Source: Gaertneriomyces semiglobifer
Taxonomy: Eukaryota > Chytridiomycota > Chytridiomycetes > Spizellomycetales > Spizellomycetaceae
NCBI GenBank assembly: GCA_025558075.1
Contig: JAHLKF010000001.1
Location: forward strand, 682,001 to 746,000
DNA: 64,000 nt
Direction of reading: 5' to 3'
Under the pieces are notes generated by a model that was not told where the DNA came from, made no database searches, and worked only from the letters and a program-made list of their open reading frames with translations. Made by a program: the position numbers and the translations under genes. Positions 12,325 to 40,140 of the stretch are shown piece by piece. How positions within the stretch are numbered: the stretch's first letter is position 1; every line of letters begins with the position of its first letter.

Positions 12325-12374
12325 GACACAGTGCGCATAAATAAGCTGTACAGCTTATTTATGCGCACTGTGTC
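12325..12374. repeat. 50-bp perfect palindrome at the left end of element 1
   Basis: The 50 bases are their own reverse complement, starting GACACAGTGCGCATAAATAA and centred on GTAC at 12348-12351. The right end has the outer arms of the same palindrome (GACACAGTGC/GCACTGTGTC) but lacks the 30-bp centre. Such ends could come from hairpin telomeres or a recombinase site. Confidence 0.9.
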
Positions 12375-12379
12375 AATGG

Positions 12380-12524
12380 GACTTATTGATAGGACTTATT
12401 ATTGTCGACTTATTAAGGTTGACTTATCGATATGACTTATTTGGAGGACTTATGAGGATACAAGTTAATTAAGGACTTATAAGGATAAGAATTACTTAAT
12501 GACTTATTGAGAGAAATAAGTCGC
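12380..12524. promoter_or_regulatory. phased GACTTAT iteron array in the TIR
   Basis: GACTTAT starts at 12380, 12393, 12407, 12421, 12434, 12447, 12474 and 12501, so spacings are 13, 14, 14, 13, 13, 27 and 27. One inverted copy (ATAAGTC) follows at 12518. The same array is mirrored in the right TIR (about 39977-40115). Such phased arrays are usual for replication-initiator or recombinase binding; the protein is unknown. Confidence 0.7.
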
Positions 12525-12706
12525 GCCGGTCATGATCGCCATTGACAATCATTGCCATTATCACCATCATCACCATCATCACCAATCATTGCCACTAACC
12601 AGTTTCCCTTCAGCATCAGTTTAACTTGCGTCCAAGTTGCAGCCGCAAATGCGACCAACACCGTCGCAACTTCAAAACCGTCGCAACTTCAACACAGTCC
12701 TAAGTT

Positions 12707-12983
12707 TGTTGCAGAGGGATCCTGCTGATGCTCTGATCCTTCTAATAAGCTTATGTGTATTCAAGTCTAAGGTTACAAGAGTGCAGTTGAATGCCCGGCA
12801 TAAGAGAACCACCGACGGACAAGGTCACGTGTCGGGTGTTAGGGCACCCAGTCACATGGGTCACGTACGCATGGGCACATGACGCACGTGTACATGCTGA
12901 TATGAATAAGAACCCATGTCATAGAGCGTGCCCTGGTTAGGGTATCCCTATGACGTGTATGTCACCGGGACCCCCTTACAACA
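12707..12983 (-). repeat. copia 3' LTR
   Basis: A 277-bp LTR with TGTTG/CAACA ends. It is followed at 12984-12993 by CTCCCCCCTC, the complement of the polypurine tract. Confidence 0.93.
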
Positions 12984-13043
12984 CTCCCCCCTCGGTGCAT
13001 GCACGACATTTCCTGCAAACTGCCTGACACCTTCAGCAGCTGT

Positions 13044-16000
13044 TTAGTGCTTATTTTCAGTGTTCGACACCTTCAGCAGCTTGTCAGCAGTGTCAGGCAT
13101 TGTCAACAACCTGTTAGCAGTGTCAGACACCTTGTCAGGCACTGTCAGCAGCTTGTCAGCAGTGTCGGGCGCTGTCAGCAACTTGTCAGAAGCGTCGGAC
13201 ATATGGAGACCCATGCGAGAATGCATGCTATTCAGAGCAGGAGCAGCTAGAGCCTTGATAAGTCCATCAGCAAGCTGACTATTGGTGGATACATAGCGGA
13301 GAGCGATTTCCTGGGTCTGATGAACTTTTTCGCGGATGAAATGATGGCGGAGATCAATGTGCTTGGTGCGATTGTGATTAACTGGGTTGTTGACAAGTTT
13401 GATGGCTGCCTGGTTGTCCTCGTACACTGTCAGAGCACCATAAGTGCCGGGTTCAGTGCCGGGGAGGATGGACCGTGTGGTGTCAGTGTGTGGAAAGTGC
13501 TCGAGGAGCGCGATCATCAGTCGACGGAGCCATACTGCCTCTTTGGCGGCCTCAGCTAATGCAATGTATTCCGCTTCTGCTGTAGATTGTGCTGTGCAGT
13601 TCTGGAGCTTAGATGCCCACGAAATAGCGCCTCCGTTCAGCAAGAAAGGTACGCCGACGTCGAACGTCGATTTTCAGCATTTGCCGCGAAATCAGCGTCG
13701 GAGTAACCATGTAGGGAAGATACTCCCCCGTCTCTAGGGCCATACAAGAGCTTGAGGTTGCGAGTGCCTTTTACATAGCGGAGGACACAGCGAGCAGCAC
13801 TCAGATGCTGTTCAGTTGGTTTCGACAAGAAGCGGGACAGTTTGGAGATTGCAAATGCGAGATTGGGCCGTGTAGCGATGGTAAGATACATCAAACTGCC
13901 GATTATTGACTGATAAATTTTTTGATCAGCCAGGACGTCGTCGTCGGTGGCAGCGACAAGCGATAAGCTGGGCGACAGTGGAACAGTGACAGATGTGGCA
14001 TCGGCAAGGCCATAGCGAAGGAGCATGTCATCAATGTATTTGCCTTGGTTCAGTGTCAGTGTGTCAGCAGTGCGTGTGACTTCAATGCCAAGAATGTACG
14101 AAATCTCCCCCATGTCCTCCATCGCGAATCGCCGGGCAAGACCATCCTTAATGGACTGTATGCGGGCCGTCGTGGAGCAGATGGTGAGGTCATCAACGTA
14201 CAGGGCGATGATGTCAGGTGTGCCGCCGGCAGCAGGGCGAATGTACAGCGCGATGTCGAGAACCGTGGGTTGGAAACCAACGGACTTCAGATAAGTGTCA
14301 AGGGTTTGGTTCCATAAGCGCGGTGACTGCTTTAACCCATAAATCGAATGTAGGAGTTTAACGTACGACCCGTCGGGGAGTTGCATATGAATGTCGGTGT
14401 CGATTACAGCGTTCAGGAATGCCGTGAGGACATCCATTTGGTGGACGACAAGGCCGAAGAGCTGAGAGAGAGCCAATAGCAGGCGGAGCGTGCTGAACTT
14501 GACGACCGGGGCATAGGTTTCATTGAAAGCGAGACCCGGGCGCTGGGTAAACCTACGGGCAACAAGGCGGGCCTTATACTTCTTCATGGACCCATCCGGG
14601 CGATGCTTAATCTTGAAAACCCATTTAGAGTCGATGGCATAAGCGTCGGACAGCAAGGCGTCGACGGGCATCCAGGTCTGATTAGCGAGCAAGGATTGGA
14701 GTTCTTTATCGATGGCCTGCTGCCAGGCATGACGGTCAGGTGAGCGCAGCGCTTGCTTATAAATGACGGGTTCCCGGGCATGGAGGCCGTCCAGAGCGGA
14801 CGCTACTAAGGCCTCGACTGTAGGAGGGGACGTGGAGGAAGATGCCTGGGAGCGATGCTTACGAGCAAAATATTCATCAACAACCGGCAAGCCGTGTAAG
14901 TTGAACGCATCGTTCCATCCAGGTTCAGAATACCCGACGTACTTAACAAAATATTGATGCTCCCCCGTCGGTGCGATCCGTTCATCAACAATGTACTCAA
15001 CTTCAAAGACTTCATCATTGGGAGCGTCGGGAGCAGGATCGACATAGTTGGTTTCATCGAACGTGACGTCGCGGGACCGATGGATGCGCTGTGTCAGTGG
15101 GTCATAGAACCGATAACCCGTGGAGTCAATGTACCCGATTAGTTTCATGCGACGAGCCCGGGGTTTGAGCTTTTTGTGGGGACGGCGTTCGACAGGGATA
15201 TGAACATAAGCGTCGGACCACAGGACCCGCAGGTTCGCCACATCCGCGGGAGAACCGTGCCATTTTTCGTATGGAGTTGCATTGCCGATGGCGCGGGACG
15301 GCGTGCGCTGACAGAGGTAGTTGACAGCAACGACGATTTCCCCCCACAGGTGCTGAGGTATGTGACTCGACAGCATGACCGCCCGGGTTTGTGTCATTAA
15401 TGTCTGATTATAACGCTCGGCGATGCCGTTTTGTGCCGGAGAGTATGCGTGGGTGGGACGAACCCGGGTGCCGTGCTGCCGAAGATCGCCGACAAGGGCA
15501 TGACTCAGATATTCACCACCGTTGTCGCATCGCAGTTCAAGGATTTTGCATCCATGGAGGTTTTCAGCATGTTGACGGAAAGCATGGAATTCAGCGGGGA
15601 CATCGTGTTTATTTTTGATGATGGCAACATGTACGTATCGAGTAAGTTCGTCGATGAACGTGACAAGGTACGGGCAGTGATCGAGGGTGTCATGCTCGAC
15701 TGACTGCACGTCACTGTGGATGCGACCGAGGACGCGGGTGACAGGTTGGGGGTTGTCATGATTGAATGGAGAGCGTCGAAACTTAGCGAAACGACACCCA
15801 ACGCATGTCGCAAGGGTGCCGGGCGCGGAAATGCCGTATGCGCGAAGCACTAGTTGGAGATTAGCAGCGCTCGGATGACCAAAACGTAGGTGCCAGAGCT
15901 CAAGGGTGACAGAGTCGGCGGAACTAGGGACAGGGTCAGCGATAACATGTGAAGTAGGCGGTATATTTTGTGAATAAACAGTGTCAGCAGCCGCAATCGC

Positions 16001-17149
16001 AGGTGTCGAAGGTGTCGGAGGTGTCGGCGGTGCCGACGGTGTCGACTCGGTCGAATTGGTCGATTCCGGTCGATTTGTCGGAAAGTGCTGTGCCACCGTG
16101 TCGGGCGCGTGAAGTGGCTGTGGCGTCGGACGTGCAGTGACGATAACCGGGGGCGCAGTCACGGACAGGGGGTCACGGGGGGCGGCACACGACGTACGAT
16201 GCGCAATGCGCGCGGACTTGCGGACATGGGTGGTAAAGGCCTCATATTCAGCCGGAGAGGCAGTGGTATACCCAGCAATTAAATAAAGTGTATTGTGACG
16301 TATGACATCAGCTACACGAGCACCCGACTTGCGATGAGTAATCCACCCGGCACTAAGATCAGCCGAGAAGTCTAAGGCATAACGAGACTGGGCCAATGAT
16401 GCGAAGGAGAGCAGGTTCCGCAGACATTCGGGAGCATAGAGCACGTCAGTAAGCTTAAAGAAACCGTGACATGTGTTGATGATTAAGGTTCCCTTGCCGT
16501 AAGCAGCGCACGTGCCGATGCCGGAGATTTGTCGGGCCGAGGGAAAAGCTTGAAATTCCGTCAGGAGAAAGCGGTCTGGAATGATGCTATGCATGGCGCC
16601 CGAGTCGAGAGCAATGGAGTGCGGCGCGTCACGGTCAGTCGATAAGACAAGGAAGGCCTCAGGATCAGAGTCAGCGTCGTCCGCGGGGTTGGGTGAATCG
16701 GAGAGATCGGCGTCGTCATGGGCAAGTTCAGCGGCATGTGCGGCCGGGCCGGACTGAGCGCGTTTCTTGGCGTCAATGACAAGGGGACAGTCACGAACAT
16801 AGTGGGTTCCTTGGGTGCAGATGTCACAGGGACGGGCCGCCAGCCTGGGACGGCGACGGGGGTGCGTGGCGGCGGCGGCAGCGGCAAAGACTTCAGGAAT
16901 GCCAGGAGTGCGAGGTTTCGTGTACACAGAAGCATCCAAGTCCAGGGCGGCAATTTGTAAGGCGTCAAGGGTCTGGGTGTCAGCGGCAACTCGATTGCGA
17001 ATGCGGTCACGAACCGAGAGTTTGAGACCGCAAATGTAAGTAAGGCAAACGTCGTCAGAGTCCATGTTCGGCAGTCGTTCAGCGAACAGTGACGGAGGGT
17101 TGTCGGGGGCCGAGAATTCCTTCTTGGCACTGCGGGTCGAGCGGGCCAT
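13044..17149 (-). pseudogene. copia Gag-Pol polyprotein, frameshifted before RNase H
   Basis: The ATG is at 17149. A short Gag remnant (MARSTRSAKKEF) leads to a zinc knuckle CDICTQGTHYVRDCP. The aspartic protease has ALDSGA. The integrase has the HLRFGHP...C-x2-C finger and catalytic D, D, E in IHSDVQSVEHD, LRCDNGGEYLS and GIAERYNQT. A chromodomain lies at about 14895-15016 (EVEYIVDERI, YFVKYVGYSEPGWN). Reverse transcriptase has ALYVDDLTI. The frame breaks near 13640, and RNase H (QSTAEAEYIAL, VYEDNQAAIK, KHIDLRHHF) continues in the next frame to 13044. Gag is much shorter than the usual copia Gag, so the N-terminal part may be deleted. The C-terminus ends in a repeat tail. Confidence 0.92.
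13060..13215 (-). repeat. tandem repeat coding the C-terminal tail of copia Pol
   Basis: Imperfect units of about 30 bp (GTCAGCAGTGTC, TTGTCAGCA and variants on the plus strand) encode repeats of the type DTADKLLTVP after RNase H. Such a tail is not part of the usual copia Pol and may have grown by slippage. Confidence 0.7.
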
Positions 17150-17193
17150 CTTAAAAAAGTGTTATACACTGGCAAGGTGTTCAATAAGCAGTC

Positions 17194-17300
17194 GTCGTTG
17201 ATCGCAGGCAGGGGGATCAATGGCAGTCGTCGTTGATCGCAGGCAGGGGGATCAACAAGTGTCAGGCGTCGTTAATCGCTGGCAGGGGGATTAACGGTGT
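17194..17300 (-). repeat. tandem leader repeats of the copia element
   Basis: Units close to GTTGATCGCAGGCAGGGGGATCAA repeat between the primer-binding site and Gag. The same unit is repeated more often in the deleted copia derivative at 25310-25610, so it is a feature of this family's leader. Confidence 0.75.
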
Positions 17301-17422
17301 CGGGAGCGTCGTATGTCGGGAAAGCAGCGCGATCGCTCGGGCAAGTGAGGAATCGTCGGTAACGGGCCGTTCCACCGGAGACTGAAGGGCAGAGGATAAG
17401 CAGGTAACAGCAATCGATGCCA

Positions 17423-17435
17423 GGGGCTCATAACC
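17423..17435 (-). other. copia primer-binding site, internal initiator-tRNA type
   Basis: Directly after the 5' LTR the minus strand reads GGTTATGAGCCCC. It is complementary to the anticodon stem-loop of fungal initiator tRNA-Met (GGGCTCATAACC), not to a tRNA 3' end. Priming from a cut tRNA half is known for Drosophila copia and yeast Ty5. The deleted relative has the same site at 25228. Confidence 0.72.
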
Positions 17436-17713
17436 TGTTGCAGAGGGATCCTGCTGATGCTCTGATCCTTCTAATAAGCTTATGTGTATTCAAGTCTAAG
17501 GTTCTAAGAGTGCAGTTGAATGCCCGGCATAAGAGAACCACCCAACGGAAAAGGTCACGTGTTGGGTGCTAGGGCACCCAGTCACATGGGTCACGTGCTC
17601 ATGGGCACATGACGCACGTGTACATGCTGATATGGATAAGAACCTATGTCATAGCGCGCGCCCTGGTTAGGGTATCCCTATGACGTGTATGTCACCGGGA
17701 CCCCCTTACAACA
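17436..17713 (-). repeat. copia 5' LTR
   Basis: A 278-bp LTR, about 95% identical to the other copy by eye. It is followed by the target duplication AAGTT at 17714-17718. Confidence 0.93.
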
Positions 17714-18415
17714 AAGTTTGCCGCGAGAATCAACGTGATTCTGTGTCCCCCTTCATACAACCCCATACAAATCTTCCCAGTTCCCAGGCTTCTTCTGGTT
17801 GCTTATTCATACAAATCTACAAATGTACCACAAAAATCGTTCTCGCAAGCGTTTTGGCACGTCTGGCACATATAACATTTGCGTTTTCGGGTAGTAAATG
17901 TTTAAATACAGCTTTTTTTTATGATCTTGTCCAACGAGATCTACTTTTTTTTTCATTTCTGAAAATTCTTAAGTGAAAATTAAATGTACAAATGTGCCAA
18001 ATGTGTCAAAACGCTTACCGAAACCTTTTTTAATGGCACATTTACTTTTATTATAATATATAAATGTACCAATAACCATTACGCTAACACTTTTATCTGG
18101 CACATTTGTGGTACATCTGTGAAAACCTTCCAAAGCTTTCCTCTAAAGTTTCCTTTTTTTGTTTTCATATCTAATGATTTGCGGCAAGCAATCCATCATG
18201 GCGCCAACTGTTCACCCATCACCGCCCATAGCTTCCCATGTGCCCCACAAACTTGTCTGTATTCGCAGCCACTTCTGACACCTTTTTTAACCCTAGGTCT
18301 GAAAACTCCGTTGCCCGACGCGATGCTTCTCGCACCTTGTTGTTAAACAGCGCATTGCCTTGGACTCCTGCATTGGCGTGTTGAATCAGTCTACCAGCTC
18401 TTCCGGCATTTGCCT
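17714..18415 (+). repeat. left TIR of element 1, inner segment
   Basis: This continues the TIR after the copia insertion and matches the reverse complement of about 39094-39800. It is AT-rich, with repeated GTGCCA/TGGCAC motifs in both orientations, T-tracts and an ACGAGAT hairpin near 17930. A partly similar third copy is at 29356-29692. The open frame across it is T-rich and unlikely to be a gene. Confidence 0.9.
18219..18415 (-). pseudogene. 3' half of a small TIR-border gene, duplicated copy
   Basis: The minus strand reads NAGRAGRLIQHANAG through to a TGA at 18219-18221. It is the same protein tail as the gene at 38994-39290, whose 5' half lies outside the right TIR. Only the part inside the TIR is present here, so this is a fragment without a start. 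It keeps Arg where the right copy has a stop. Confidence 0.75.
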
Positions 18416-19338: not shown

Positions 19339-22300
19339 TTATGCCACTTTATGTATCATGATTCTAGAATATGAAAGCATTCTCGAAGACCAATTTGGTA
19401 AAAGCGTTGATTGTCCAGCGCTGAAGGATGCAGTCTCAGCGCCGCCATTCGCTATGTTGATTCTGGCTTGTTTTGATTGTGCTGTGGTCACGTACATGAA
19501 ATGAAACGAGCATGTACTTGGGGCTCCTCCTTGCCCCAAGCCCACGAATGGACCTTTAACGCAACTACTTTCGACTTGTTCCCAAACATCATTCTGATTG
19601 TTCTCCAAGAGGAAAGCGGTAAACCTTGCAAGATTACCAAGATGGGTAGATGTGACAAAGAGACATATGTTTATCATATACATACCCACTTCTTCAAAGA
19701 CGATAATGGTATTGTCAGTGGGATGTATACGAATCTTATCTGTCATATAAACGTCGGAGTAGGTATTTGTCCAACTGCTGTTTCCATTACCAAAGGCAGG
19801 AATTTCCATAGGCTGTAAAAGGTTGAATGCAGCTGCAACACCTGAATTCACCAGAGTGTCGCCAACTTTTAACGCATCCACACTCAGAACCTTCGACTTG
19901 GGTCCGCTTTTGAATTTCAATGCATAGATCTAGGCATACTTTGCATTCGATCCACCCACAATCGATTTTGCAATCAACCTGTACATTTTGTAAGCGAGTG
20001 GATTAGTAGTTATCGAGACATTCAATTCACGTAACAAACCATTGGTTGTCGCACTATTCCAATCGAGTGTTCCTGCAGTCATTTGTTTCCAAGTTGAGTT
20101 ATTGTTACTTCCGGCAATAACATAATCTTTGATATCAAAGGGTTGACTGCTTGCAGAATTAGGACCAGCGATGTAAAAATATGTTAAAGCAATCAAAGAT
20201 TGCATTTCCAATTGGACCCATTCACCCATTATAGGTACCCCGTCTACTGTTGTGGACATGCTTCGTATGTACGAATAGGGTGTCGTGGTTGCATAGGTAT
20301 CTGTAGCAGAAAACCATGTATTGTTATTTTTAGAATCATACTGATTGTAAATCTTCCACGGTGTCCATGATGCGCTATAAACACTTGATGAACTAGCAGT
20401 ATATTGTCCGGTAGTTGCCGCTGTCATAGTAATCTCAGGGAAAGTCATGGTTGAAACAATTTCTTCTTGAAAAGTCATGCCATTCATCTTCACATCTCCA
20501 GAACATACCAAGTCCTCCGTGATGACCTGTTTTGTAAATAGTGAACCCTTGATGTCCAAGACAGGAATCCCATTGAATACCAATTTATTCACAGTACAGA
20601 ATGTTGAATTTCCTGCCATGGATTTTGCAATTAGACAATATGTGTTAAATGCTTTGGCGGACTTGGGAACTGGTATGTTGATCGTTTGTACCGATTCAGT
20701 CCCCCAATTCATTGTTGACGACAGGATATTCGTAAATGTGGCACCGTTGTCGTCCGAGGCAACAAGATCGAAATCTTTTATGAATCTGGAAGTTGTGGAA
20801 CTTGAAATGTCGAACGACGATAATATGATAGAAACCGGCATTTGAAGTTGGATCCACTCTCCAGCCACAGATACAGAGTCAACAAGGGTCGTTATTCCTC
20901 TTATATAACTGTATGGACTCGTTGAGCTGTATGAGTTAACTAGGGGGTACCAAGGACCTGTTGCAAACGCTTGCCATGGACTATAGTACGTCGAGTTATT
21001 ATATACAGAACTTGCACTAGCAGTGTATGTACCGTTTCCATAAGTTTGTCCGGAAATAACAGTTGTCTCTGCAGTCGTATTAGCCGGTGGGAACGATACA
21101 ATATCTGTAATAATTCCACTGCCACCTGAAACGTTTATCGATCCTCCAACAGAGAGACTGCCGCTGATGACTAGCGTTCTAAGATTCAATGCGCCAACAG
21201 ATAGGCTTGTCGGAATATTCATAGCACCCGAAGTATCAATTATGATACCGCCAGTCTCGGTCTTGCTTAGCAACCTTAATGCACCTGCATAGTTTTGAAT
21301 GGTTGCAGTATTCACGCCTCCGTATGACCCTCGTGCAGCGCTGTTTATATGAAGGTACAAACCTTGAGTACCACCTGCTTTAAGATGAAGAGAAGTACAT
21401 GACGTTGAAGCACTGAACTGCTTATTCAATATATGGTTGAAACGACCATTGATGTTTCTGTTAGCAAAAAAGGCGCCGCCTATATCTACGTTTCCTGTCG
21501 CGTATATATTGGCTCCAACAGAAATGCCTGATGCAGTTGTTAAAGTATCAACGCTCACTGCTGGGTTCAACGACACCGTGTTATTACTGAACAACAGACC
21601 ACTTCCATAAGTTACAGACGCTGGGACATTAAGTAAACCGGCAGTATAGTCAACCTTGTCTTTGTAAGCCAATCCTTTAAGCGATGTTTTAGTTTCATAG
21701 ATTGACAAGTCCGGTTTGTTGATTATATCTGTCGAGTTGTAATCAATGTTGTTCTTTGTCGATAAGGTTCCAAGCGTTGGCTTATTTGCCACTTCAGTTG
21801 TCCATGATACACTGGATTTAGCAGCAAGTGTTCCCAACGTTGGTTTCGAAGTAACTTCAGTCCAACTTACAGCATCCTTGTAAGCAAGAGCCTTGAGATT
21901 GGTTTTGACTTCAAGGGCACCAAGATCTGATCCCAGAAATATTGTGCTCCCTGTTTTGACCAACCCTGTTCCAACCGTGAGATATGTTAAAGAATCCACA
22001 TATGTCTTGGTGGGCAAATCTGTCGGTTTATTTAGAATATCTGTTCCAGTCCAATCAATTGTATTCTTTGTCGATAAGGTTCCAAGAGTCGGTCTAGAGG
22101 TCACTTCTGTCCAGGCAATGCTGTTTTTTGCTGCCAATGTGCCAAGTGTGGGACACCTCGTTAACTCCGAATAGGACAAGGTATCTTTGAATCCCAATGC
22201 TTTGATGCTGCTTATTTTGGCAAACATTGAGGGATCATCACTGAGAGACAATATGTTACCCGTTTTGACAAGTCCTTGTCCGACACTAATGTAGTTGATG

Positions 22301-25610: not shown

Positions 25611-25626
25611 ATAACACTTTTTTAAG

Positions 25627-28065: not shown

Positions 28066-28080
28066 GCGAGGATTCTTTTA

Positions 28081-28785
28081 ATGGGGAAGAAGCACATTGC
28101 ATCTGTTGCTGTGGTGTTGGGTACACAGATTGAGTATGATCATATGAAACTGGACCCTGAAGCGGTCTCTGTCATTCGTTCATTTCAAATCGATGAAGAA
28201 GCGACCACGATCCTGAAAAACAGGAAATTTGTCGATAGAGACATAAAACGCTACCTACTTCACCTTTGGTATCAGACGGCGCTGAAAGTACCGTTTCAAA
28301 AGAACAAGACAACTGAAAAAGAACGAATAAAGAATCGTCCAAAACTATTGGAACAGTTAGGTTTAGAGAAGAATGAACACAAGAAGTTGGATCGTTTCAC
28401 CAAGAAACTTAAAAATCTCAAGCTTATCTTGAGTGAAATTGGAAAGGATGGGAAAAACATTTTATTGCTCACCGATCTTGCCGGCGACGGTGGTGGAAGC
28501 TTTCTTCGAAACCTTACGCATGAGGAAATCACAGAAGCTATGGTACTTTTGAAACAATTCGAGTTGGAAGGCATTCCGTCCAAGATTCCCAGGAAATGGG
28601 AATGGGCGCCTAAGCAGAGAGCCCGTTTTAGGAACTTGGAAAAGGATGATTATGAAAGAAAGAACCAGAAAGAAGGAGAAGATGATGATGATTATATCGA
28701 TAAAGAGGTAGATGAAGATGCAGAGGCGGATTCGAATGAGGGTTCGAATGATGGTTCGGATGAGAGTTCGAATGCCACAGAGTAA
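28081..28785 (+). CDS. element 1 protein of 234 aa with an acidic tail
   Basis: ATG at 28081. The protein is Lys-rich and mostly helical in appearance through about residue 190 (EKNEHKKLDRFTKKLKNLKL), then ends in a long acidic stretch (EGEDDDDYIDKEVDEDAEAD). There is no membrane segment or known motif. Mixed basic body and acidic tail recall nucleic-acid chaperones, but that is only a comparison of composition. It is co-oriented with and 15 bp after the 139-aa gene. Confidence 0.5.
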   Translation: MGKKHIASVAVVLGTQIEYDHMKLDPEAVSVIRSFQIDEEATTILKNRKFVDRDIKRYLLHLWYQTALKVPFQKNKTTEKERIKNRPKLLEQLGLEKNEHKKLDRFTKKLKNLKLILSEIGKDGKNILLLTDLAGDGGGSFLRNLTHEEITEAMVLLKQFELEGIPSKIPRKWEWAPKQRARFRNLEKDDYERKNQKEGEDDDDYIDKEVDEDAEADSNEGSNDGSDESSNATE

Positions 28786-29749: not shown

Positions 29750-32360
29750 TCAAGTTGGAACTTGTGCCACAGTCAAAGTAATCTGTGTCCCATTCCGCCG
29801 GTTTGTCGACCGTGGAGCAATCTGAAGCCGTTTCTTGATGAGTTTTCCAAAACCCTTAAGGCATATATCGCCGTTGGCTTTTCGTCCACCGTATCCCTGT
29901 TCAATGAACTCTTTATACTTTGAAAAAAAGACTTCGGTGGTGATTTCATATGTTTTGCCCTGTTCAAAATACTGAGCCTCCCGCTTTCCTTCCTTGTTAG
30001 CAAGATTTTGGTAAATGATGTTGCCTTCCAATAGATCATCAGCAAACAGTTCCAAAGGTGTTTTTGCCCATACCTTCATGTCTTCCTTTTCCTGAGTCTC
30101 AGGAACCTTGCGAGGATGGAAACCGGTCAAGTCAATGCTCATCAAATACGTGTAGTAATGATCAGCCACCTCCTGCATCAGACTCAACGCCAACTTTTTA
30201 AAGTACTCTTCATTTCCGCGTTGGCAACTTGATGATTCCTTGACAAAGTACCGGCGGTCACTCTGTTCTACCCGGACACAATTGTCTTGATTGGATAGAA
30301 ACACAAAATTCATAAAGGCATCAATCATCACAGAATCTACGCCTTTTTTCTCCAACTTCTGCCATACTTGGGTGATGAGGGACTTGAGTTTATTGTTGAT
30401 TTTGTGCCCACCCGCAAAAGCAACTTCATCACCCAACACAAAATCTTTCCAGCATGCAATGAGGTAAACTGTCCTGTCAAAACATCCAGATCATTCAAAT
30501 AAAGATAATGTTCATGACCAATGATGAACTTGCCAAAGAATTCCCAAAAGACGTTCTTGCCAATTCCTTGCCTGCTAAAGTTTACAATCGCTGTTTCCGT
30601 CTTCACAAAAGGTTTCTGGAGAATGGACGCCATCCACTTTTCTGTAAAGTCCCCATGTTCTTTGACGCCGGCATTCAGAATTGTGTATATATAATGACGA
30701 ATCGGTGCAATGAGTTCTTCAGAATACTCTTCAAGAAGCGTCGCTTGAAACCCATAAAAGAGGTTCAGTTTAGAATGTGGCTTGTCTCCGATGAACGAGG
30801 GGTCCATGACAATGTTTTTGAACGTCATCATATAGGATGCTTGTCCCAAAGGCTGAAGAGTGAAACTGTTGTCTTTTCCCTGCTACGCTTATCCGGCACT
30901 TGAATGTTGTAGTGATCCTTGGCAGCTCCCGTTTCATTTTTCTTCCTAATGATCCACGACTCACTTGGAGTGTTGCGGTAGCAGTACATGACTGAAGTCT
31001 TGTTGGTGACCTTGGCAAAGTAGTGGTTAAGGTAACCGATCAGATCTGCAGGTCTCTTATCAAAGATCTCTTGTGCGCATTGAACGGACAGCTCTTCGTC
31101 CTGTTGCACGTGAATGTCGTTCCGCTTATTGACATATTCAGCCCAAGGATCTTCTTCCTTTACCGGCTTTTCTTTGTTGCCTTTGTCTAGACAAAGGCGC
31201 TTGTAAAATTCCTTCTTCACAATCATCGGCTTGATTGCCAGAGGAATCCCCATCCCGGTGTGTTGCTTGACATACTGTTGGATGTCGTGAAAGGTGTTCT
31301 TATCGACGACATGGACAGGATTCGTGCGTGCCTGAAGTCCATCGAATATCAAAACATCCGGAGAAATGTTGTTTTCCTCCAAATACTGTATGGTCTTTTG
31401 AAGTGCCTGATTCTCCAGAGTCTGGACAACCAGACTGAGAAATGAGCCGGTGCGGTTGACAGAAATCTTTTTGTGACGTGAACTTTGAATGTGTTTTCAC
31501 AGAGTAGTGTACAAGGTATCTCCTGCTTGAAACTTGGGAACAAGTGATCCATAGATCGCCTGATGAATGGCTCTGAAGAATCCGATTTTGGGCTCTACAT
31601 AGCCCTTCATCAGCATTGAGATGACTTGTTCCTTGTCAATTTTGTACTTTTGGAGAATTATTTGACAGTTTCCCATATACTGTCCAAGTTCTTTGCATTC
31701 AATGCTAAATGTCTCACATAGATGTGCAAGGATGGTAGGGGCACTGTTCACTTGATCAACATCAACATAAAAATCGGCGCTGAGAAAGGCACGGACGCTC
31801 TTGGGAAATCCTTGCAGTCCTAAATTGGAGCGGGCAAAGAGGCGACCGCTTCCATTGATGGAATACTTGGAATAAGTGTCTTCCACGCGGAACTCATTGG
31901 TATTGCCCGTGTAGCAACTTTTCCAATATTCTTTGAGTTGTTTCTTGACTTTGGTGTCAAGATACGGATTGCGCAACAACACTTTTAACTTTTCTTCATC
32001 ACAGAGTTCGATTCTTGATTCAATGGTCGACATCTCTTTATTGTCGACAGGAAATTCAAAGATCTCATTGTCGTTGATTGATGGCACCACTTCCATTTTG
32101 TTGATACCATGGGCAACTTTGCGAACATCAGGAGAGGCACGATGAATTACAGGAGGTTCAGGAGTGGCATCCTTAGCAGTGTCACCATCACTGCACTTGG
32201 GCTCCTCCTCGTACTTGTAGTCATCGATCTCTGCCTCGCGCTGTCGTTCGTATGCCTTTACGTGCCTACGCGTCTCCCTCATGAACTCTGCATCCACTGC
32301 AGCCAGAACACTTTTCCATTCAAGATCGGAAGTCATTTCTTTGAGCGAAAAGATGGGCAA
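29750..32360 (-). pseudogene. TVpol/primase-superfamily 3 helicase fusion, broken
   Basis: This is the replication protein of element 1. The N-terminal frame (32360-31497) has the segment FYVDVDQVNSAPTILAHL, as in transposon-virus polymerase/primase domains that precede S3H helicases. The C-terminal helicase has RQGIGKNVFWEFFGKFI (Walker A-like, with Asn in place of the usual Ser/Thr), VLGDEVAFAGGHKINNKLK and VFLSNQDNCV. The gene is cut by one in-frame TGA at about 31497, a frameshift near 30840 and another near 30430, so it is very likely dead. ATG at 32360 or at the Met a few codons later (MT SDLEW). Domain naming is by motif pattern only. Confidence 0.75.
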
Positions 32361-32618
32361 AGATCGGTAAATGGGAAAAGTGTTGTATAGTTTTTTGTAT
32401 GTTTCTTAATACAACCTAAATTTTTTTGAAGGGTAAAACTAAAGCTTTTTTCTCAAATGCACCTTTTTATCGAAAAATGCAGCGTCATAACATGACGTCA
32501 TCCATTTTTCTCAAAAAACTATTTAAGTCGACTTATAGTAAAAATAAATTTTATAAGTCACTTATTAAAAATAGAACAAGTCAACTTTTACGCATTTTCT
32601 CACGACAAATTCCAAGCC
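32361..32618. promoter_or_regulatory. divergent control region with TIR-type iterons
   Basis: The region between the divergent helicase and recombinase genes is AT-rich. It carries GACTTAT at 32530-32536 and the inverted ATAAGTC at 32553-32559, the same heptamer that forms the iteron array in both TIRs. A TGACGTCA palindrome is near 32493-32501. One protein may therefore bind the ends and this promoter. Confidence 0.5.
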
Positions 32619-33755
32619 ATGGCTGATCATATGGATGTGTGTACCGTTCCCGACGTCGATGGAACTTCCACTTGCACCGACGACGATGAAGAACAAGTGA
32701 CACCTGTGTTCAAGGGCACCACTTTTCCTACCCACAACCGTGAATTTCGCAAAATCGAGACCATCTTCCGCGAGATCTTTGACAATACAACCTTTACCAA
32801 GTCGGAGCGTCCGAACATCAAGTCTTCTATCAACAAACTCGCCGGAGATCATCTTGAAGTCAATTGTATCGGCGATCTGAAACGTTTCGTGAAGCACATT
32901 GAAGAAAAGTTCAAGTCTGCCACGCGACACAATGTCAAAAACAAGATCCGTCACGTCCGTTTGCTCCTGGATAATTCGACACTTGATCATCGTCGTGAAA
33001 TGCTGAAGATGCCGGATGCAGATGAAGAGGAGGTCAATGATATCTTCAACAGGATCATTCCTGTTTACGGTAAGAAGACTGATGAGCTCAAGCAGCAAGA
33101 GAAGAATGCGAGATTCAAGCAAGCAACACCTCATGAAAGGAGGAACTACATGCCATATGAAGAGTTATATCCTGCGTTGCTGGAGAAATTGGATGAGATC
33201 ACACCGGAAAATGTACGTACCGTTCACTCACAGATGTTGATCGGTGCCTCCATCTTGCTGGGTGGATCAAAGATGCGCAGGTTGAATATTGGGGAAACAA
33301 AGGCGATGGACTTTGGTGCTAATATGAAACTTTTACTGTCGGACTACATCATTAAAATCAAGAAATGCAACAAGAGCAAGGAGAAACCTACTGATTATGA
33401 CCACAATGTGGAAATCGTGATCGAGGATGAAAAGATCATGGAAAAGTTGAAACTCTTGGCTGACACTCGTAATGCTGATTCCGACCATTATTTCTTCAAA
33501 AGGGACATGATCAACCAGGAGACCAATGACTATGCACCTGATTGTGCTTGGTTCGGTGTTCGTCTTTCCAAGACCCTCGAGAGGGAATTCGGTAAGAAAT
33601 TGACTGTGGGTATGCTACGTATTATCTGCGGTAAGTATCTCTCCAAGACAATGGACAATGGTGATCCAAGGAAACAAGAAGAGATCGCCGAGATTATGGG
33701 ACACGCTTACAAGACTCATCAAGAGCATTACAACATTGAAGGATTGGAAGTCTAG
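32619..33755 (+). CDS. tyrosine recombinase of element 1
   Basis: The 378-aa frame has a helical core-binding region and a C-terminal catalytic domain. The last part reads TVGMLRIICGKYLSKT, then EEIAEIMGHAYKTHQEHYN, which fits box II of tyrosine recombinases: Arg in the LRI segment, His in GHAY and the final Tyr nucleophile in EHYN. The first catalytic Arg is probably in GGSKMRRLNI. The family includes recombinases of Tlr elements, virophages and large DNA viruses. The frame is intact and ends 18 bp from the end of the convergent rve integrase gene. Confidence 0.82.
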   Translation: MADHMDVCTVPDVDGTSTCTDDDEEQVTPVFKGTTFPTHNREFRKIETIFREIFDNTTFTKSERPNIKSSINKLAGDHLEVNCIGDLKRFVKHIEEKFKSATRHNVKNKIRHVRLLLDNSTLDHRREMLKMPDADEEEVNDIFNRIIPVYGKKTDELKQQEKNARFKQATPHERRNYMPYEELYPALLEKLDEITPENVRTVHSQMLIGASILLGGSKMRRLNIGETKAMDFGANMKLLLSDYIIKIKKCNKSKEKPTDYDHNVEIVIEDEKIMEKLKLLADTRNADSDHYFFKRDMINQETNDYAPDCAWFGVRLSKTLEREFGKKLTVGMLRIICGKYLSKTMDNGDPRKQEEIAEIMGHAYKTHQEHYNIEGLEV

Positions 33756-33773: not shown

Positions 33774-35012
33774 TTAGTGTGTATTTTCATAATCATATAT
33801 TTTATCTTGTGCATTGCTCAAGTTCGACACTGGCTCCCATGTTGATTCGGAGTGCGGGTAGCCTCGCCAGAGTACCAAGTACTCGCTTATATCTTCTCCT
33901 CTCGCTTGTCGACGCACCCTTTTATCGAGGATGGTCTCCACTTCAAATTCATCTTCACTCATATCTTCGTCTTCTTCAGCTTCATCCCTTGTAGTGCCCC
34001 TTTGTGTTCCCTCTGGAACGAGCCTTAGCTGGTATGCAGCATAGAGACCTACTTTACCTGCAAGGCGATAAGCATCCATGTAATTCGGATGCTTACTCGG
34101 CACTCCGCCTGTAATGGTAAAAATATCGTCGGTGAAGTAGCCTTGTTTAGCTCGCCTTCGAATATCCGTGCTTTCAGTCTTCAATAACCGTACCTTATCT
34201 CCGATCGAGAATTTCGGCAGGACTTTTATTCCTCTGCCTTTCGTTCGGAGAGCGAGTTGATTTCTATAGGCATTCTGTAAATCCATCTCTATTTCATCGG
34301 GCGTCCTGAGTTTCTTCTCCGCTTCAAAGGACACATCCGAGTTAATATTCTCCACAAATTGCGGTAAGGATCCTACCCAGTCTCTGTTACCCATTTTGAT
34401 ATCTGCATACAGCCTTCGTTTCAGTGTTCCATTCATTCTTTCCACTATGCCATTTGTTTGTGGTGCACCAGGTTTGGAATAGCGCCAAGGGATATCTTGC
34501 TGTTCAGCCCATGTCTGCACAATATCCAGCAATTCGGTTCCATTATCACTTTGAATACTTCGAATTTCAACTCCATCGTCCACTAACCCTTGTAAGAAAT
34601 CACGGACATTCATTTGATTATTGGCACGGATTGCTTTACTATACAACCTCTTGGTCAGAATGTCGACTGCATTGACAACGTAGGAATACCTGTTGTAGCT
34701 CACTGCCGACAGATTAATTGTATCGATCTGAAGCACGCCTTTTTCGCTGGAAAGGATAGGTCTTATGCCGCCCTTGCTCACAATGGGTCTTGTCGTCTTT
34801 TGATGGAGTTCTTGCTTCTTCAGCCATTCGAGGACAGCTCGTTGGCTTCCCTTGAAAAAGCTGTAACGGCTCTTTGCTAAAAAATACAACCGGTCGCGTC
34901 CCATGTATGCCTTCTTGTCATAGTAGAGTTCTTCCAAAATGTCTTCATCTTTCTTGGAGAGACTTTTCCACCTGTTCGTGGATCTATGTCCACCATCATC
35001 TTCGTCGCTCAT
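33774..35012 (-). CDS. rve (DDE) integrase with C-terminal chromodomain
   Basis: This is a retroviral-type integrase like those of Polintons and Ginger elements, 412 aa and intact. The catalytic triad is visible as Asp in VLQIDTINL, Asp in IQSDNGTELL and Glu in TNGIVERMNGT. A chromodomain closes the protein (EFEVETILDKRV, YLVLWRGYPHSESTWEP), which may target integration to marked chromatin. The N-terminal Zn-finger helix bundle is weak. The ATG at 35012 faces the small basic gene at 35047. It sits directly beside the tyrosine recombinase, so the element codes two different integration enzymes. Confidence 0.93.
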   Translation of the reverse strand: MSDEDDGGHRSTNRWKSLSKKDEDILEELYYDKKAYMGRDRLYFLAKSRYSFFKGSQRAVLEWLKKQELHQKTTRPIVSKGGIRPILSSEKGVLQIDTINLSAVSYNRYSYVVNAVDILTKRLYSKAIRANNQMNVRDFLQGLVDDGVEIRSIQSDNGTELLDIVQTWAEQQDIPWRYSKPGAPQTNGIVERMNGTLKRRLYADIKMGNRDWVGSLPQFVENINSDVSFEAEKKLRTPDEIEMDLQNAYRNQLALRTKGRGIKVLPKFSIGDKVRLLKTESTDIRRRAKQGYFTDDIFTITGGVPSKHPNYMDAYRLAGKVGLYAAYQLRLVPEGTQRGTTRDEAEEDEDMSEDEFEVETILDKRVRRQARGEDISEYLVLWRGYPHSESTWEPVSNLSNAQDKIYDYENTH

Positions 35013-35307: not shown

Positions 35308-36549
35308 TTAGATGATCGACGTTGTCAGTCCGAACATCAAGGTACGAACAGTATAGACCGTCGTGATCATGCTCACTCGAGTGGACGGAACGTTAGCAGG
35401 GTCGTGGTGTAATACAACTCGCAAATTTCCGTCTGTCCCCATCAGATTCAGGGAAGAGCCCATTAATTCCTCGTCCTTCAATGCGAACAAATGTCATATC
35501 GTGAAGGACTGATCGTCAAATGTGCTGAAGTCCAGGTCTTCACTTTCATACATGTCGGAATTCGACATACTTAATGCACCGCTCATCACGGCATCTTCTC
35601 GAGTAAAGTCCTCCTGCAACGGGAGCCTCCAACCTCCCAAGGTATACCTATAAGACAACAGACCGGCATCGTTGTACACTTGTTCTTTATTTCCAGTCGT
35701 TGTACCATAGGTGTCGTCGTTGCGAAACCTATGACTAAGACCTACCACTCTAGAATTCGTGAGCGGCAGAATGATGGTGTTCATCGACGAACCGCTCAAT
35801 GGGGAAATAATTTGGGTAGCTTGGACGAAGTCCATTTCCAAATAGTGTCCTTTTTGGATTGCGGAATGTCCGGCGGCTAAAAATTCGGCTGAAGGTCCCA
35901 CAACTTGGCATATCATCCGTACATCGTCAATGATAAAGTACGCATTCCCTGCATTCTGAAGAGTGTAGGTTGGAGAGTTCAGACTTAGCGAGATTTCACA
36001 AGAGTTGCCAGCGAGCAAACACAAGGGGATAGGTTGTCCATTGACGGGATTCAGAGACCCCACCTGTAGGTGATGGCGGACAACTGTCCCTTCATCTGTA
36101 GTATTGAAGAAATCAGTACGACCATATCCTTCGAAATGGCGGAGGTATTTTTTTCGTCCTGTGGTTTCGAATTGGTACGTCTGTGATAGGAGTTCGGGAT
36201 AATCGTCCACAGAATCTGAAACTTTGCCTGCTAATTTGACTGTTACTCCCTTGATTACTGACATTGCTCCTACAGTGTTATTTTGGATGCTCCCATCTGC
36301 GCCATACCACCTGACGCGAAACGATAGGTAGCACCTCTGGGGGCGCCAGAAGCACGTAGGGTTATCTACCTTGATCTGAATGAGATTACCAGGACTTCTC
36401 GAATCGTACCTGTCCTTGATCGGTCTCACCACGTCGATGTTCTCACTAAGTGCGTCACTGGTCATACCAAACTGGGATGATTCATAAATCCAGTTCCTGG
36501 GAACCATCGGATAGGTCAAGCCCGAAACTGCAGTATTCACAACAGCCAT
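35308..36549 (-). CDS. double-jelly-roll major capsid protein of element 1
   Basis: The ATG is at 36549 (MAVVNTAVSGLTYPMVPRNW). The frame is open for 351 codons to TGA at 35494. It then stays open in the same frame for another 60 codons (FALKDEELMGSSLNLMG...TTVYTVRTLMFG) to 35308, so the TGA is probably a late nonsense mutation in a protein of about 413 aa. The beta-rich sequence with paired jelly-roll-like blocks (CYLSFRVRWYG, GVTVKLAG, CEISLSLNSPTYTLQNAG, IILPLTNSRVVGLSHRF) and the gene order suggest the PLV capsid protein. It is not detectably similar by eye to the capsid gene of element 2. The call needs a profile or structure comparison. Confidence 0.62.
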
Positions 36550-36646: not shown

Positions 36647-37144
36647 TCATTGAAATCGGCTACGTCTGGGGAAGATAGCCAAGTAAGGATTCATTTCAGG
36701 TTGTTGTTGAACAGGTTGAGGCTGCATCTGTTGTTCATCTTCACTGCTGGTATCATCCATTTTTACATAGACTTTCTTCTTCCTTGGTGTCTTTGGTTTT
36801 GACGGAGGTGCCGGTGCAGGTACAGGCGCAGGTTCAGACTTGGCTCTTACCTGTCTAGGTTTCCTTTTTGCACGCTGCTCTTCCTTGTGTTTCGCAAGCA
36901 ATGCTTTGGCTTCTTCGATCCTCTGCTGCTCCTTCTTCTTCTTTTGTTCCTCCGAGAGTTGTCGGAGATTCTCCGTTTGTGCAGCTCTTGCCCTCTCGAA
37001 AGCCGCAATCTGAGCAGCAGACCGTGGCTTCTTTACCTTGGGCTGTTCTTCAGTATATACAGGATTTTGTACTACATTTTGTACCACGTCCGTCTTGAGA
37101 ACATTCTTGGTCGTCGGGACAGTGTTTTTCTGAATTTCTGACAT
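36647..37144 (-). CDS. Lys-rich coiled-coil protein of element 1
   Basis: A 165-aa frame starting MSEIQKNTVPTTKN. The middle is a charged helix (SAAQIAAFERARAAQ, LSEEQKKKKEQQRIEE) followed by a Pro/Lys-rich part (PAPAPPSKPKTPRKKK) and an acidic/Gln tail. A protein of the same build lies in element 2 at 55285-55992, also with a SEEQK helix start. Such proteins are common near the capsid genes of polinton-like viruses; function unknown. Confidence 0.55.
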   Translation of the reverse strand: MSEIQKNTVPTTKNVLKTDVVQNVVQNPVYTEEQPKVKKPRSAAQIAAFERARAAQTENLRQLSEEQKKKKEQQRIEEAKALLAKHKEEQRAKRKPRQVRAKSEPAPVPAPAPPSKPKTPRKKKVYVKMDDTSSEDEQQMQPQPVQQQPEMNPYLAIFPRRSRFQ

Positions 37145-37215
37145 TTTCGTTGGTTGTTTAACTTAAGCTTTCTAAAAAAAAATCAAAACTTTACAAACTG
37201 CGAAAAGAAAAGAAA

Positions 37216-38876
37216 TCACTTTTTCTTCTTGTACCCCTTATTGCTTCGCGCGTCTGGTTCCGCATACACAACCTCTTTTCCTTTGTTCCTTCCACTGTGA
37301 CGAGGCTGTGGCTCTTCGACAGACGCAGTCGCTATGGGAATGGCGGAAGAACTTGACGGTGGGAAACCAGGAAGTGTGTAACCAGCATTCGATCGTGCAT
37401 CTGGTTCTTTGTATGTGGTTTGTTTTCCTTTGTTGCATCCTGACCTTCTAGGGACTACAGGGGTCACTGCAGTAGGTGAGATAGCAGGAGTTGTAGGCGA
37501 TGCTCTTGTGGATCGTGCTCTAGGTGTGCTGGATGAAGCAGTTGGAGAGATACGTTCTTGCTTGACCGCTGTGATAGGTGATGTGATGACATCTTGCCCG
37601 GGCGAAGGCGGCACAATAGGATCGCGACTAGGTGTCAATAACACAGGACCGGCAAGCGCTGTTTCAACCTTGAGATCAGGTTTGTATCTTTTACTTCTTT
37701 TGGGTGTTGTCACTGTGGGGCTGTCGTGATCGCTCTTGATCAGAATGAACGGTTCGGGTGTTGGAAGGGACTGCGGGGACTGCGGTGATGCTAATCTAGG
37801 ACTGCGTGGGTATTCGATTCTTGGTTGAACACTGGGGTACATTTGGACCGGTGAAGCACTTGGATAAGTGATCCGTGCCGGCAATGGTGGCTGCGCAGGT
37901 TCAGGAGTAGCACTTGGATAGTAATGAGCATACGGAAGCTGTGGGAGTTGATACGGCGCAGCTATGGTGGGACTTGGGGGTAATGTTACCTCAGGGGTGG
38001 TTGTCCTACTGCTACGTCGACGGACAGGACTGACTGCCGTGATATCCATCGGTTCGTTATTTGGTACAATGCCTTGCAGCTCGTCGATAGGAACTCTTTG
38101 TTGGAACAGGTCAGCCATTGTGGCTGCATCTCTAAACTTCTTTGTTTTTGTCTGTGCCTCTGCATTCCTCAGTTCAGTGTGTGTCGTCTGAGCTCCGGTA
38201 CTGCTTGATTGGGTATGAGTTTGTGTTGTTGAAGTCCGGAAATCTCTGATGCGTGTTCCATGCCGTAAAGTACCTTCGGTAGGGGCAACATCCAGTATAA
38301 TTGGTCCAGGTTTCCCAATGGTGCCAACTTCATCACTTACCTGGACACCAGTGTCGGTCATGTTGATCACAGGATTGCTGGCATGGATCGTCTTGGATAC
38401 GTGGGTCAGATTGTCATGTTTTGGGAAACCAGGAAGGTCACGGACAACATTCCTTGACGAGTCCCCGAGAAACTGATTCGGCTGGTGGAAGACATTAACA
38501 GATCCATCACCATTGTCTTCATACTTGACTGTACCGCTCATGTTAACGATACGCCCATCCCGTGGGATCAGATTTCCATTGTCCAATTCATCGAAATATT
38601 ATCCCTTTGCCTTGTATTCTTTGACAGCGACGAATGCCTCTACTGCATCCTTGGCTACCTTGGAAACATAATCAGGACCGGAAAAATGAGGACCGTTTAG
38701 TTCAAGATCTTTTTAACCTGTCCAAACGAAGGAAACACAAAGTCTCCATGTGTTCTTCTGTCCTTGGCGACGCCCGGTCGTATCAGAGCAAACTGGGTCC
38801 AGTCGACAACTACGGTCGGAGCTGCATCTATTCGCCTGAACCAAACACTCAGATCCTGATCGAAGATGGCAGGCAT
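37216..38876 (-). pseudogene. large Pro/Ser-rich structural-type protein, broken
   Basis: The minus strand opens with ATG at 38876 (MPAIFDQDLSVWFRRIDAAP), shifts frame near 38705, meets one in-frame TAA near 38601, and continues open to 37216, about 550 codons in all. The N-terminal part is globular (VDWTQFALIRPGV). The rest is Pro/Ser/Thr-rich with a C-terminal duplicated motif (NKGKQTTYKEPDARSNAGY and NKGKEVVYAEPDARSNKGY) and a Lys tail. The first 59 codons form a frame too short to stand out alone. No family recognised. Confidence 0.5.
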
Positions 38877-38993
38877 ATGGGTTGGTTAATAGAGGAATAT
38901 TTCTGTGTCTATATATTAAGATAGAAATAAAATAACAGCCAGCGAGAAGACGTTGAACAGTAAAAACTCTTCAAGTTCAAAGGATCAAAAGAC

Positions 38994-39290
38994 ATGGCAA
39001 ACTTCTTCCGGAACATCAGACAACGAGCAGGTGGGTTCTTACGAGCCCTTCCACAGAACGTTACAAAGGCATGTGGATTCCTAACAGCCGTCCAGGCGAA
39101 TGCCGGAAGAGCTGGTTGACTGATTCAACATGCCAATGCAGGAGTCCAAGGCAATGCGCTGTTTAACAACAAGGTGCGAGAAGCATCGCGTCGGGCAACG
39201 GAGTTTTCAGACCTAGGGTTAAAGAAGGTGTCGGAAGTGGCTGCGAATACGGACAAGTTTGTGGAGCACATGGGAAGCTATGGGTGGTGA
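38994..39290 (+). pseudogene. small protein gene spanning the TIR border, nonsense-mutated
   Basis: ATG at 38994 (MANFFRNIRQRAGGF). The frame meets TGA at 39117-39119 and then stays open to 39290, 98 codons in total. The left-TIR copy has Arg (AGA) at the stop position. The right TIR begins at about 39094, so the 3' two-thirds of the gene are duplicated at the other end and the 5' third is unique. The protein is basic with a glycine-rich start, and looks like a small virion or membrane-active peptide (inference). Confidence 0.6.
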
Positions 39291-40140
39291 TGAGTGAACA
39301 GTTGGCGCCATGACGGATTGCTTGCCGCAAATCATTAGATATGAAAACAAAAAAAGGAAACTTTAGAGGAAAGCTTTGGAAGGTTTTCACAGATTTACCA
39401 CAAATGTGCCAGATAAAAGTGTTAGCGTAATGGTTATTGGTACATTTATATATTATAATAAAAGTAAATGTGCCATTAAAAAAGGTTTCGGTAAGCGTTT
39501 TGGCACATTTGGCACATTTGTACATTTAATTTTCTTAAGAATTTTCAGAAATGAAAAAAAAAGTAGATCTCGTTGGACGAGATCATAAAAAAAAGCTGTA
39601 TTTAAACATTTACTACCTGAAAACGCAAATGTCACATGTGCCAGACGTGCCAAAACGCTTGCGAGAACGATTTTTGTGGCACATTTGTAGATTTGTATGA
39701 ATAAGCAACCAGAAGGAGACTGGGAACTGGGAAGATTCATATGGGGTTGTATGAAGGGGGACACAGAATCACGTTGATTCTCGCGGCAAACTTAGGACTG
39801 TGTTGAAGTTGCGACGGTTTTGAAGTTGCGACGGTGTTGGTCGCATTTGCGGCTGCGACTTGGACGCAAGTTAAACTGATGCTGAAGGGAAACTGGTTGG
39901 TGGCAATGATTGGCGATGATGGTGATGATGGTGATGATGGCAATGATTGTCAATGGCGATCATGACTGGCGCGACTTATTTCTCTCAATAAGTCATTAAG
40001 TAATTCTTATCCTTATAAGTCCTTAATTAACTTGTATCCTCATAAGTCCTCCAAATAAGTCATATCGATAAGTCAACCTTAATAAGTCGACAATAATAAG
40101 TCCTATCAATAAGTCCCATTGACACAGTGCGCACTGTGTC
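39094..40140 (-). repeat. right TIR of element 1
   Basis: 1047 bp, inverted relative to 12325-12706 plus 17714-18415. It has the GTGCCA/TGGCAC-rich inner part, the CATCAC-type microsatellite, the mirrored GACTTAT iterons (about 39977-40115) and the 20-bp terminal palindrome. A few substitutions separate the two TIRs. Confidence 0.93.
40121..40140. repeat. 20-bp palindrome at the right end of element 1
   Basis: GACACAGTGCGCACTGTGTC is a perfect palindrome. It corresponds to the outer arms of the 50-bp palindrome at the left end with the central 30 bp missing. Confidence 0.9.

Follow-up and report, generated by a model that had tools for sequence, protein, structure and literature searches.

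Polinton-like provirus with palindromic ends

A stretch of 64,000 nucleotides of the Gaertneriomyces semiglobifer genome (the window; C1:682001–746000 in an assembly of 20.9 Mb and 66 contigs) contains the provirus of a polinton-like virus (PLV), which lies in the chromosome of this chytrid and is partly decayed. We are confident that the virus integrated as a linear duplex with TGACACAG...CTGTGTCA palindromes at its ends and a 5-bp target duplication around them, the signature of its own retroviral-type integrase. To explain these ends we propose a mechanism that we consider evenly balanced between right and wrong, in which hairpin-ended viral DNA would be processed by a recombinase and copied by a fused replicase–helicase.

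The provirus spans 27,818 bp, from 12324 to 40141 of the window; the first-pass annotation had located the element and placed its bounds at 12325–40140, just inside the true ends. The left terminal palindrome (12324–12375) is 52 bp long and perfect, and the right one (40120–40141) has been cut down to 22 bp, with the same outer arms as the left. In a search for palindromes with arms of ≥16 bp and ≤1 mismatch, the window yielded one, at the left end of the provirus, and one shuffled window yielded none. Two sister copies were found (C7:887306–908724 and C42:6119–28848), and in all three copies both ends are palindromes of this form, the left one of the C7 copy having two mismatched arm pairs. 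The flanking target-site duplication reads GCGGG on the left (12319–12323, plus strand) and GCAGG on the right (40142–40146, plus strand), with four of the five letters shared.

Alignment of the arms confirmed the terminal inverted repeats (TIRs) of about 1.05 kb that had been described. Because a Copia element is inserted in the left TIR, this repeat consists of an outer piece (12324–12706, plus strand) and an inner piece that begins with the Copia target duplication (17714–18415, plus strand); the right TIR lies at 39094–40141 (minus strand). The arms are 98.6% identical over 347 bp and 96.7% over 702 bp in the window copy, 99.3% over 1062 bp in the C7 copy and 95.4% over 839 bp in the C42 copy. 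The nested Copia long terminal repeat (LTR) retrotransposon (12707–17713, minus strand; 5,007 bp; pol open reading frame (ORF) 13637–17149) is foreign to the virus and has 278-bp LTRs that are 95% identical and a 5-bp duplication, AAGTT. Likewise foreign is a short LTR element of 1,067 bp (25023–26089; duplication AGCAG), which splits the penton gene. Since the 27.8-kb span holds both, the virus itself is of ordinary PLV size, and the earlier description of it as large for a PLV was mistaken; removal of the two elements and their duplications leaves 21,734 bp, and this length of 21.7 kb, together with the TIRs, places the element among PLVs as delimited by TIRs and a size of 14–40 kb.

Insertion sites and lone palindromes

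The pattern CACAGTGC-N(20–40)-GCACTGTG occurs at 40 places in the genome and its reversed control at none. The palindromes were tabulated with their flanks (n = 40, 39 of them 48–57 bp long); the pattern hits C24:45267 and C31:94731, which have no outer end, were left out. By our grouping, the ends comprise those of the element-1 family, that of the present provirus (6), of lineages A (11), B (6), C (6) and D (4), and lone palindromes (6), with C40:72523 outside the groups, and at least five lineages carry the 48–57-bp palindromes.

In nine pairs of ends, the 5-mers flanking the palindromes match at all five positions in the C7 and C42 copies, B/C21, C/C38 and A/C2-C32 (which joins ends from two contigs), and at four in the window copy. 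The remaining three pairs, which weigh against our explanation, have no clean duplication (B/C6, 2/5; A/C35, 2/5; C/C31, 0/5); the flanks of A/C35 and C/C31 are inverted copies of each other. For four insertions, unoccupied counterparts were found, all of which fit in length and three letter for letter. The C7 copy sits in a Copia whose unoccupied relative is the Copia of the window, at 16712–16716; a lineage A copy sits in the penton candidate gene of an element with a family B polymerase (PolB), of which the free version is at 45206–45210 of the window, within the corresponding gene of element 2; the unoccupied site of C/C38 was found in L034; and the site in L004 related to that of the window copy reads GCGAG, which fits in length and differs in one letter. 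Since the palindromes lie inside the 5-bp duplications, they arrived with the virus. The size of the duplications, 5 bp, and their position outside the palindromes led us to reject the recombinase, in favour of the integrase, as the route of entry.

The proviruses with inverted flanks are C35 (C35:88630–91629 and 115206–118205; L104/L105; 1,943 bp, 100% identical) and C31 (C31:92887–95886 and 120215–123214; L106/L107; 1,113 bp, 98.7% identical), neither with a target duplication. These flanks perhaps arose when a break at one terminal palindrome was repaired by synthesis primed from the opposite TIR; those of C31 partly consist of sequence that is repeated elsewhere, and an assembly fault might account for C35. 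A lineage A PLV is nested inside PolB elements at several contig ends and has apparently multiplied with them.

Palindromes were also found alone. Exact 5-bp duplications lie on both sides of those at C3:675873, C1:1471506, C15:850 and C46:31863, and duplications of 4/5 at C21:184720 and C40:69465, compared with an off-junction background of 0.15% (exact) and 1.6% (4/5). Five of the six have element-1-type centres and one has D-type arms. These lone palindromes may be remnants of full elements whose two palindromes recombined exactly, or else bare ends that were inserted on their own.

Symmetry of the palindromes

Perfect symmetry was found in 28 of the 39 palindromes, and 17 of 1,014 arm pairs are mismatched, a count that is weakened as evidence for our proposal by the 8 outer bp of each arm, which the pattern required and which are hence symmetrical by construction. 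When the arms of the 18 distinct arm pairs were re-dealt (1000 rounds), the mismatches averaged 186 with a minimum of 122, as opposed to the 17 observed. The outer arms are conserved, whereas the inner stems are lineage-specific yet symmetrical. In the element-1 palindromes, the stretch between the outer arm and the centre reads CATAAAT, CTGCAT, AAAAAAT, CATAATT, GATAATT or GATGATT, varying in length as well as in sequence, and the opposite arm matches it apart from the single mismatches already counted.

The palindromes could be mere paired binding sites for the integrase or the recombinase, kept symmetrical by selection for the binding of a dimer, on a virus with open linear ends. Retroviral-type integrase substrates end in TG...CA, as do these palindromes, and the outer arms TGWCACAGTGC are common to all tabulated lineages bar single mismatches (partly required by the search). 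Tyrosine recombinase sites, too, often have inverted repeats on either side of a core (PMC13236599; here and below, the cited papers are represented by excerpts). Nevertheless, the variable stretch within the arms stays symmetrical while its sequence and length change, which is not predicted by protein binding alone; three copies whose recombinases are 85–92% identical still differ in the variable stem, and each is symmetrical. We therefore consider the binding-site explanation rather improbable. A non-conserved part that remains symmetrical requires one arm to serve as template for the other, which a hairpin or snap-back end provides.

Alternatively, the host might restore the symmetry, by quasi-palindrome correction or by conversion between the TIRs, with the lone palindromes as recombination scars or bare palindromes resembling miniature inverted-repeat transposable elements, and no hairpin stage in the virus. 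Integrase or recombination would suffice to produce the lone palindromes with 5-bp duplications of their own, and the TIR arms are alike within each of the three copies (95–99%). However, integrated copies drift from symmetry, as seen at both C42 ends, the left C7 end and five of the six lone palindromes, and perfect symmetry is thus not maintained by the host. Moreover, conversion from one TIR to the other equalises the two ends without making one arm a copy of its partner. This explanation seems to us unlikely, slightly more so than paired binding sites.

In each of the odd-length families B and C, reading inwards gives T as the centre base at four of the six ends and A at two, and the two ends of the C6 element differ, one having T and the other A. 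These are the states that flip and flop would give, which suggests such inversion, even if 12 ends cannot prove it. Among sequences of IMG/VR, 16 stretches match the arms, none of which is palindromic inside (≥11 mismatched positions, pairs counted twice). In element 2, the one PolB element examined, perfect palindromes with arms of ≥10 bp are absent.

Gene content and selection

All gene types present are already known from PLVs or virophages. The major capsid protein (35308–36549, minus strand) was assigned from its predicted structure and its homologues: the structure prediction that the first-pass annotation had suggested for this ORF was run, and a structure search with the model matched double-jelly-roll capsid proteins, so that the capsid assignment stands. 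In the window copy, an in-frame stop occurs ~60 codons short of the end of the C7 homologue. The A32-type packaging ATPase was likewise recovered (26490–27224, plus strand; PF04665, E = 4.2e-5, 23.6 bits, cut-off 22.8). For the penton, a candidate gene with its LTR insert was found (24618–26473, minus strand), and the profile support is weak: the C7 copy matches DUF5901 under the cut-off (E = 0.006), and hhalign with the element 2 candidate gave E = 0.007 but a probability of 5.6%. The fibre gene (19339–24484, minus strand), which encodes F5/8 type C domains, is in three open pieces and has the length of about 5.1 kb that had been noted. Capsid, penton, ATPase and fibre would together form the particle.

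A putative fused replicase and superfamily 3 helicase of TVpol-S3H type occupies 29750–32405 (minus strand, four open pieces). Its helicase half, which the first-pass annotation had recognised, matches DUF5906 in the window copy (E = 4e-9), and the C42 helicase matches D5_N (E = 2e-9) and the C-terminus of P4-type primases (E = 2e-19, yet under the curated cut-off). The polymerase half we take to be TVpol from its motifs and the published architecture. The C7 gene shifts frame in the same region as the window copy. As had been stated, the element has no PolB: a query consisting of the first 710 aa of the element 2 enzyme found no match inside it, and on contig C1 matched only element 2 and fragments at 60605–61811 of the window.

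Three features are additional to those annotated before, namely the terminal palindromes, a probable tyrosine recombinase (32619–33755, plus strand, 378 aa, open) and a retroviral-type integrase with a C-terminal chromodomain (33774–35012, minus strand, 412 aa, open; rve, E = 1.2e-8; chromodomain, E = 4e-15; PFV integrase, E = 0.003). The remaining ORFs are a small basic protein of 165 aa (36647–37144, minus strand), with homologues by eye in C7 and C42, a proline-rich protein of 456 aa (37216–38586, minus strand), with a homologue by eye in C42, and two small called ORFs of 139 and 234 aa (27646–28785, plus strand), for which a Pfam search gave no match. In the window copy, the frames of integrase, recombinase and ATPase are open and those of the capsid, penton, fibre and replicase are disrupted, so that the full set of proteins is no longer within its reach. 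The C7 copy has intact frames for the fibre (1627 aa), the penton (251 aa) and the capsid (P0001, 413 aa).

Between copies, the ratio of nonsynonymous to synonymous rates (dN/dS) is 0.08–0.12 for the capsid (first 221 codons only for C42) at dS 0.7–1.5, 0.075–0.08 for the integrase, 0.19–0.30 for the recombinase, 0.11 for the ATPase (C1–C7) and 0.05 for the penton (C7–C42). Values of 0.05–0.30 mean that purifying selection acted while the copies diverged; judged from their sequences, they were functional viruses during this divergence, and the decay followed insertion. The dS values are unequal among genes (0.16–0.36 for the recombinase versus 0.6–1.5 for capsid and integrase), as is expected of mosaic genomes. 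TIRs, an integrase and a target duplication also occur in transposons, and the element might be a DNA transposon with unrelated cargo. This is extremely improbable in light of the double-jelly-roll capsid model, the ATPase, penton and fibre candidates and the low dN/dS of the capsid at such dS. The provirus reading, the penton fold aside, has thus survived both findings that were named beforehand as fatal to it, a capsid without a jelly roll and a transposon with unrelated cargo.

The C42 copy carries a C5-cytosine DNA methyltransferase gene (C42:17756–19699; PF00145, E = 4e-36), of which none was found among the window-copy ORFs searched. Lineage A has two capsid-type genes, 51% and ~24–30% identical to that of the window, ~3 kb apart on opposite strands (C19:374429 and 377623; likewise on C30, C34, C39, C47, C35, C2 and C59). 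A telomeric origin of the lineage A copies was rejected in favour of an unresolved repeat: C2, C19, C30, C34, C39 and C47 all end at precisely 1426 bp beyond the integrase gene, the last 400 bases of C2, C19, C30 and C47 look identical and lack TTAGGG, and C35 runs on past this point.

Probable recombinase and proposed end mechanism

The ORF at 32619–33755 is a probable tyrosine recombinase, on the strength of a structure model for which the top eight VIA rows all belong to this superfamily; chains of the telomere resolvase TelA take ranks 1–4 of a weak Foldseek list. Telomere resolvases are related to tyrosine recombinases. Element-1 and lineage A elements carry the recombinase gene internally, and in lineage D it is located beside the ends.

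Under the proposed mechanism, the free genome would have hairpin or snap-back ends. Replication would turn each hairpin round, one arm thereby being copied from the other, and the symmetry would be kept as the sequence drifts. The recombinase would act on the 48–57-bp palindromes and resolve the junctions of replicated genomes into hairpin ends, in the manner of a phage telomere resolvase. It could instead recombine the palindrome at one end with that at the other, releasing the virus and leaving a single palindrome at the site, as in Cre/lox. The fused replicase–helicase would copy the DNA, with hairpin ends in place of the protein priming of relatives that have PolB. We infer the hairpin stage, the role of the recombinase and excision from the genes, ends and palindromes described above. 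In a broader and more tentative form, which we hold with less than even confidence, there would be a radiation of fungal PLVs without protein priming, whose closed or snap-back ends are made by a telomere-resolvase-type recombinase, whose integrase inserts the opened form and whose recombinase excises it, leaving a lone scar.

Several observations weigh against this mechanism. No free viral DNA, reads or hairpin were observed, and the flip–flop case comprises one base at 12 ends, with the odd-length palindrome at C40:72523 (single, imperfect) left uncounted. The recombinase model is poor, with a mean pLDDT of 46 and mostly <50 in the catalytic half; its best VIA score, 8.9, is in a range that possibly means only a common arrangement of helices; the TelA match in Foldseek is not significant (E = 0.8), and TelA is absent from the 50 best VIA rows. 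The recombinase has no match in Pfam, PHROGs or NCBIfam, nor any sequence match in the PDB. The recombinase candidate of lineage B was recognised by eye only, with no profile match, and the survey for this gene covered the element-1 family and lineages A, B and D. The polymerase half of the replicase has no profile match and none among PDB sequences.

Relationship to known elements

Relatives of the capsid turned up in chytrids and, beyond these, only in two records that name no source; none was confirmed in IMG/VR, nor was any relative of the element 2 capsid candidate or the C42 replicase found there, by scans that detect only shared short exact patterns. In agreement with the first-pass annotation, the capsid has no significant similarity to that of element 2 (hhalign, E = 0.11), and the ATPases share 23% identity over 82 residues only. 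The suggestion of a new lineage is plausible on the distribution of capsid relatives. The remark that fungal PLVs are poorly described is fair, except that a Spizellomyces punctatus PLV and Allomyces capsid genes are in print (PMC7805220). The former is likewise a PLV in a chytrid genome; its group, which clusters with metagenome contigs and of which 52% carry a chitinase gene, is set apart by that description. A survey of 1,352 protist assemblies excluded Fungi by design (PMC10120064).

PLVs often lack PolB, and replicases of the TVpol-S3H type have been described in PgVV, in Sputnik and in PLVs of cryptophytes (PMC4642659, PMC12220804). The PLVs with this replicase (PgVV, PLV-YSL1 and cryptophyte cluster C1) resemble the present provirus in their capsid and packaging genes, long TIRs, similar size and, if our assignment of the polymerase half is right, a fused polymerase–helicase instead of PolB. 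As far as the excerpts describe them, they differ from it in that the provirus has 48–57-bp terminal palindromes, combines a chromodomain integrase with a probable tyrosine recombinase, and has capsid relatives only in chytrids, apart from the two source-less records. Recombinase-bearing PLVs have target-duplication-like sequences of 7–23 bp that are often partly symmetrical (PMC12220804), and this partial symmetry may reflect the same phenomenon. The mid-GC endogenous mavirus-like elements of Cafeteria combine a retroviral-type integrase with a tyrosine recombinase, as the provirus probably does, and share its short target duplications and nested retrotransposons, but are virophages, and the paper's available text contains neither 'palindrom' nor 'hairpin' (PMC8547959). 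Phage N15 and Ectocarpus phaeoviruses each pair a telomere resolvase with a palindrome (56 bp in N15) where the closed hairpin ends of the linear genome arise or are proposed to arise, which invites comparison with the probable recombinase and the palindromes here; in contrast, the phaeovirus palindrome is internal to the integrated form, whereas here one caps each provirus end (PMC13236599). Any homology between the enzymes is conjectural. Polintons/Mavericks share the retroviral-type integrase, capsid genes, TIRs and a 5–6-bp target duplication, and the present element, unlike them, has no PolB. The replication of polintons and their relatives is begun by protein-primed polymerases (PMC11071308).

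Neither 'palindrom' nor 'hairpin' occurs in the available texts of PMC4642659, PMC7805220, PMC12721341 and PMC12220804, nor 'palindrom' in that of PMC10120064. Among the matches listed in a literature search that lay outside most subscription journals and bioRxiv, no title or abstract opening announced terminal palindromes in PLVs; the same search gave no match for Gaertneriomyces with polinton, or with virus and capsid. Already in print, as the excerpts attest, are PLVs of chytrids (PMC7805220), PLVs that lack PolB and, in virophages, elements that combine an integrase with a recombinase (PMC8547959). What we judge to be new are the terminal palindromes, their occurrence across lineages and the lone copies.

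Neighbouring and nested elements

Element 2 (41759–58146 of the window) is a PLV/polinton with PolB, an A32 ATPase and capsid candidates. It has 79-bp TIR cores, with a tRNA-Asp gene (42022–42094) within its left end, and many close copies of its PolB occur elsewhere in the genome. Beyond it, the fragments at 60605–61811 lie on the minus strand and belong to a second, decayed PolB. The polyprotein of the Copia nested in the provirus (13637–17149) has a partial chromodomain match under the family cut-off (E = 2e-4); a chromodomain is unusual for Copia elements.

Implications

PLVs and virophages with PolA-type replicases are widespread, and the literature excerpts gave no account of how their ends are copied without a protein primer. 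Hairpin ends are known in poxviruses and parvoviruses. Palindromes that remain symmetrical under sequence drift point to such ends in these fungal viruses, a solution that poxviruses and phage N15 also use and that has been proposed for phaeoviruses. Since the host species is available in culture and many copies from several lineages are present in its genome, the idea is directly testable. If it is true, a lone palindrome is the viral counterpart of a solo LTR, and lone palindromes with their duplications would count past infections that have left the genome, which gene-based surveys do not see.

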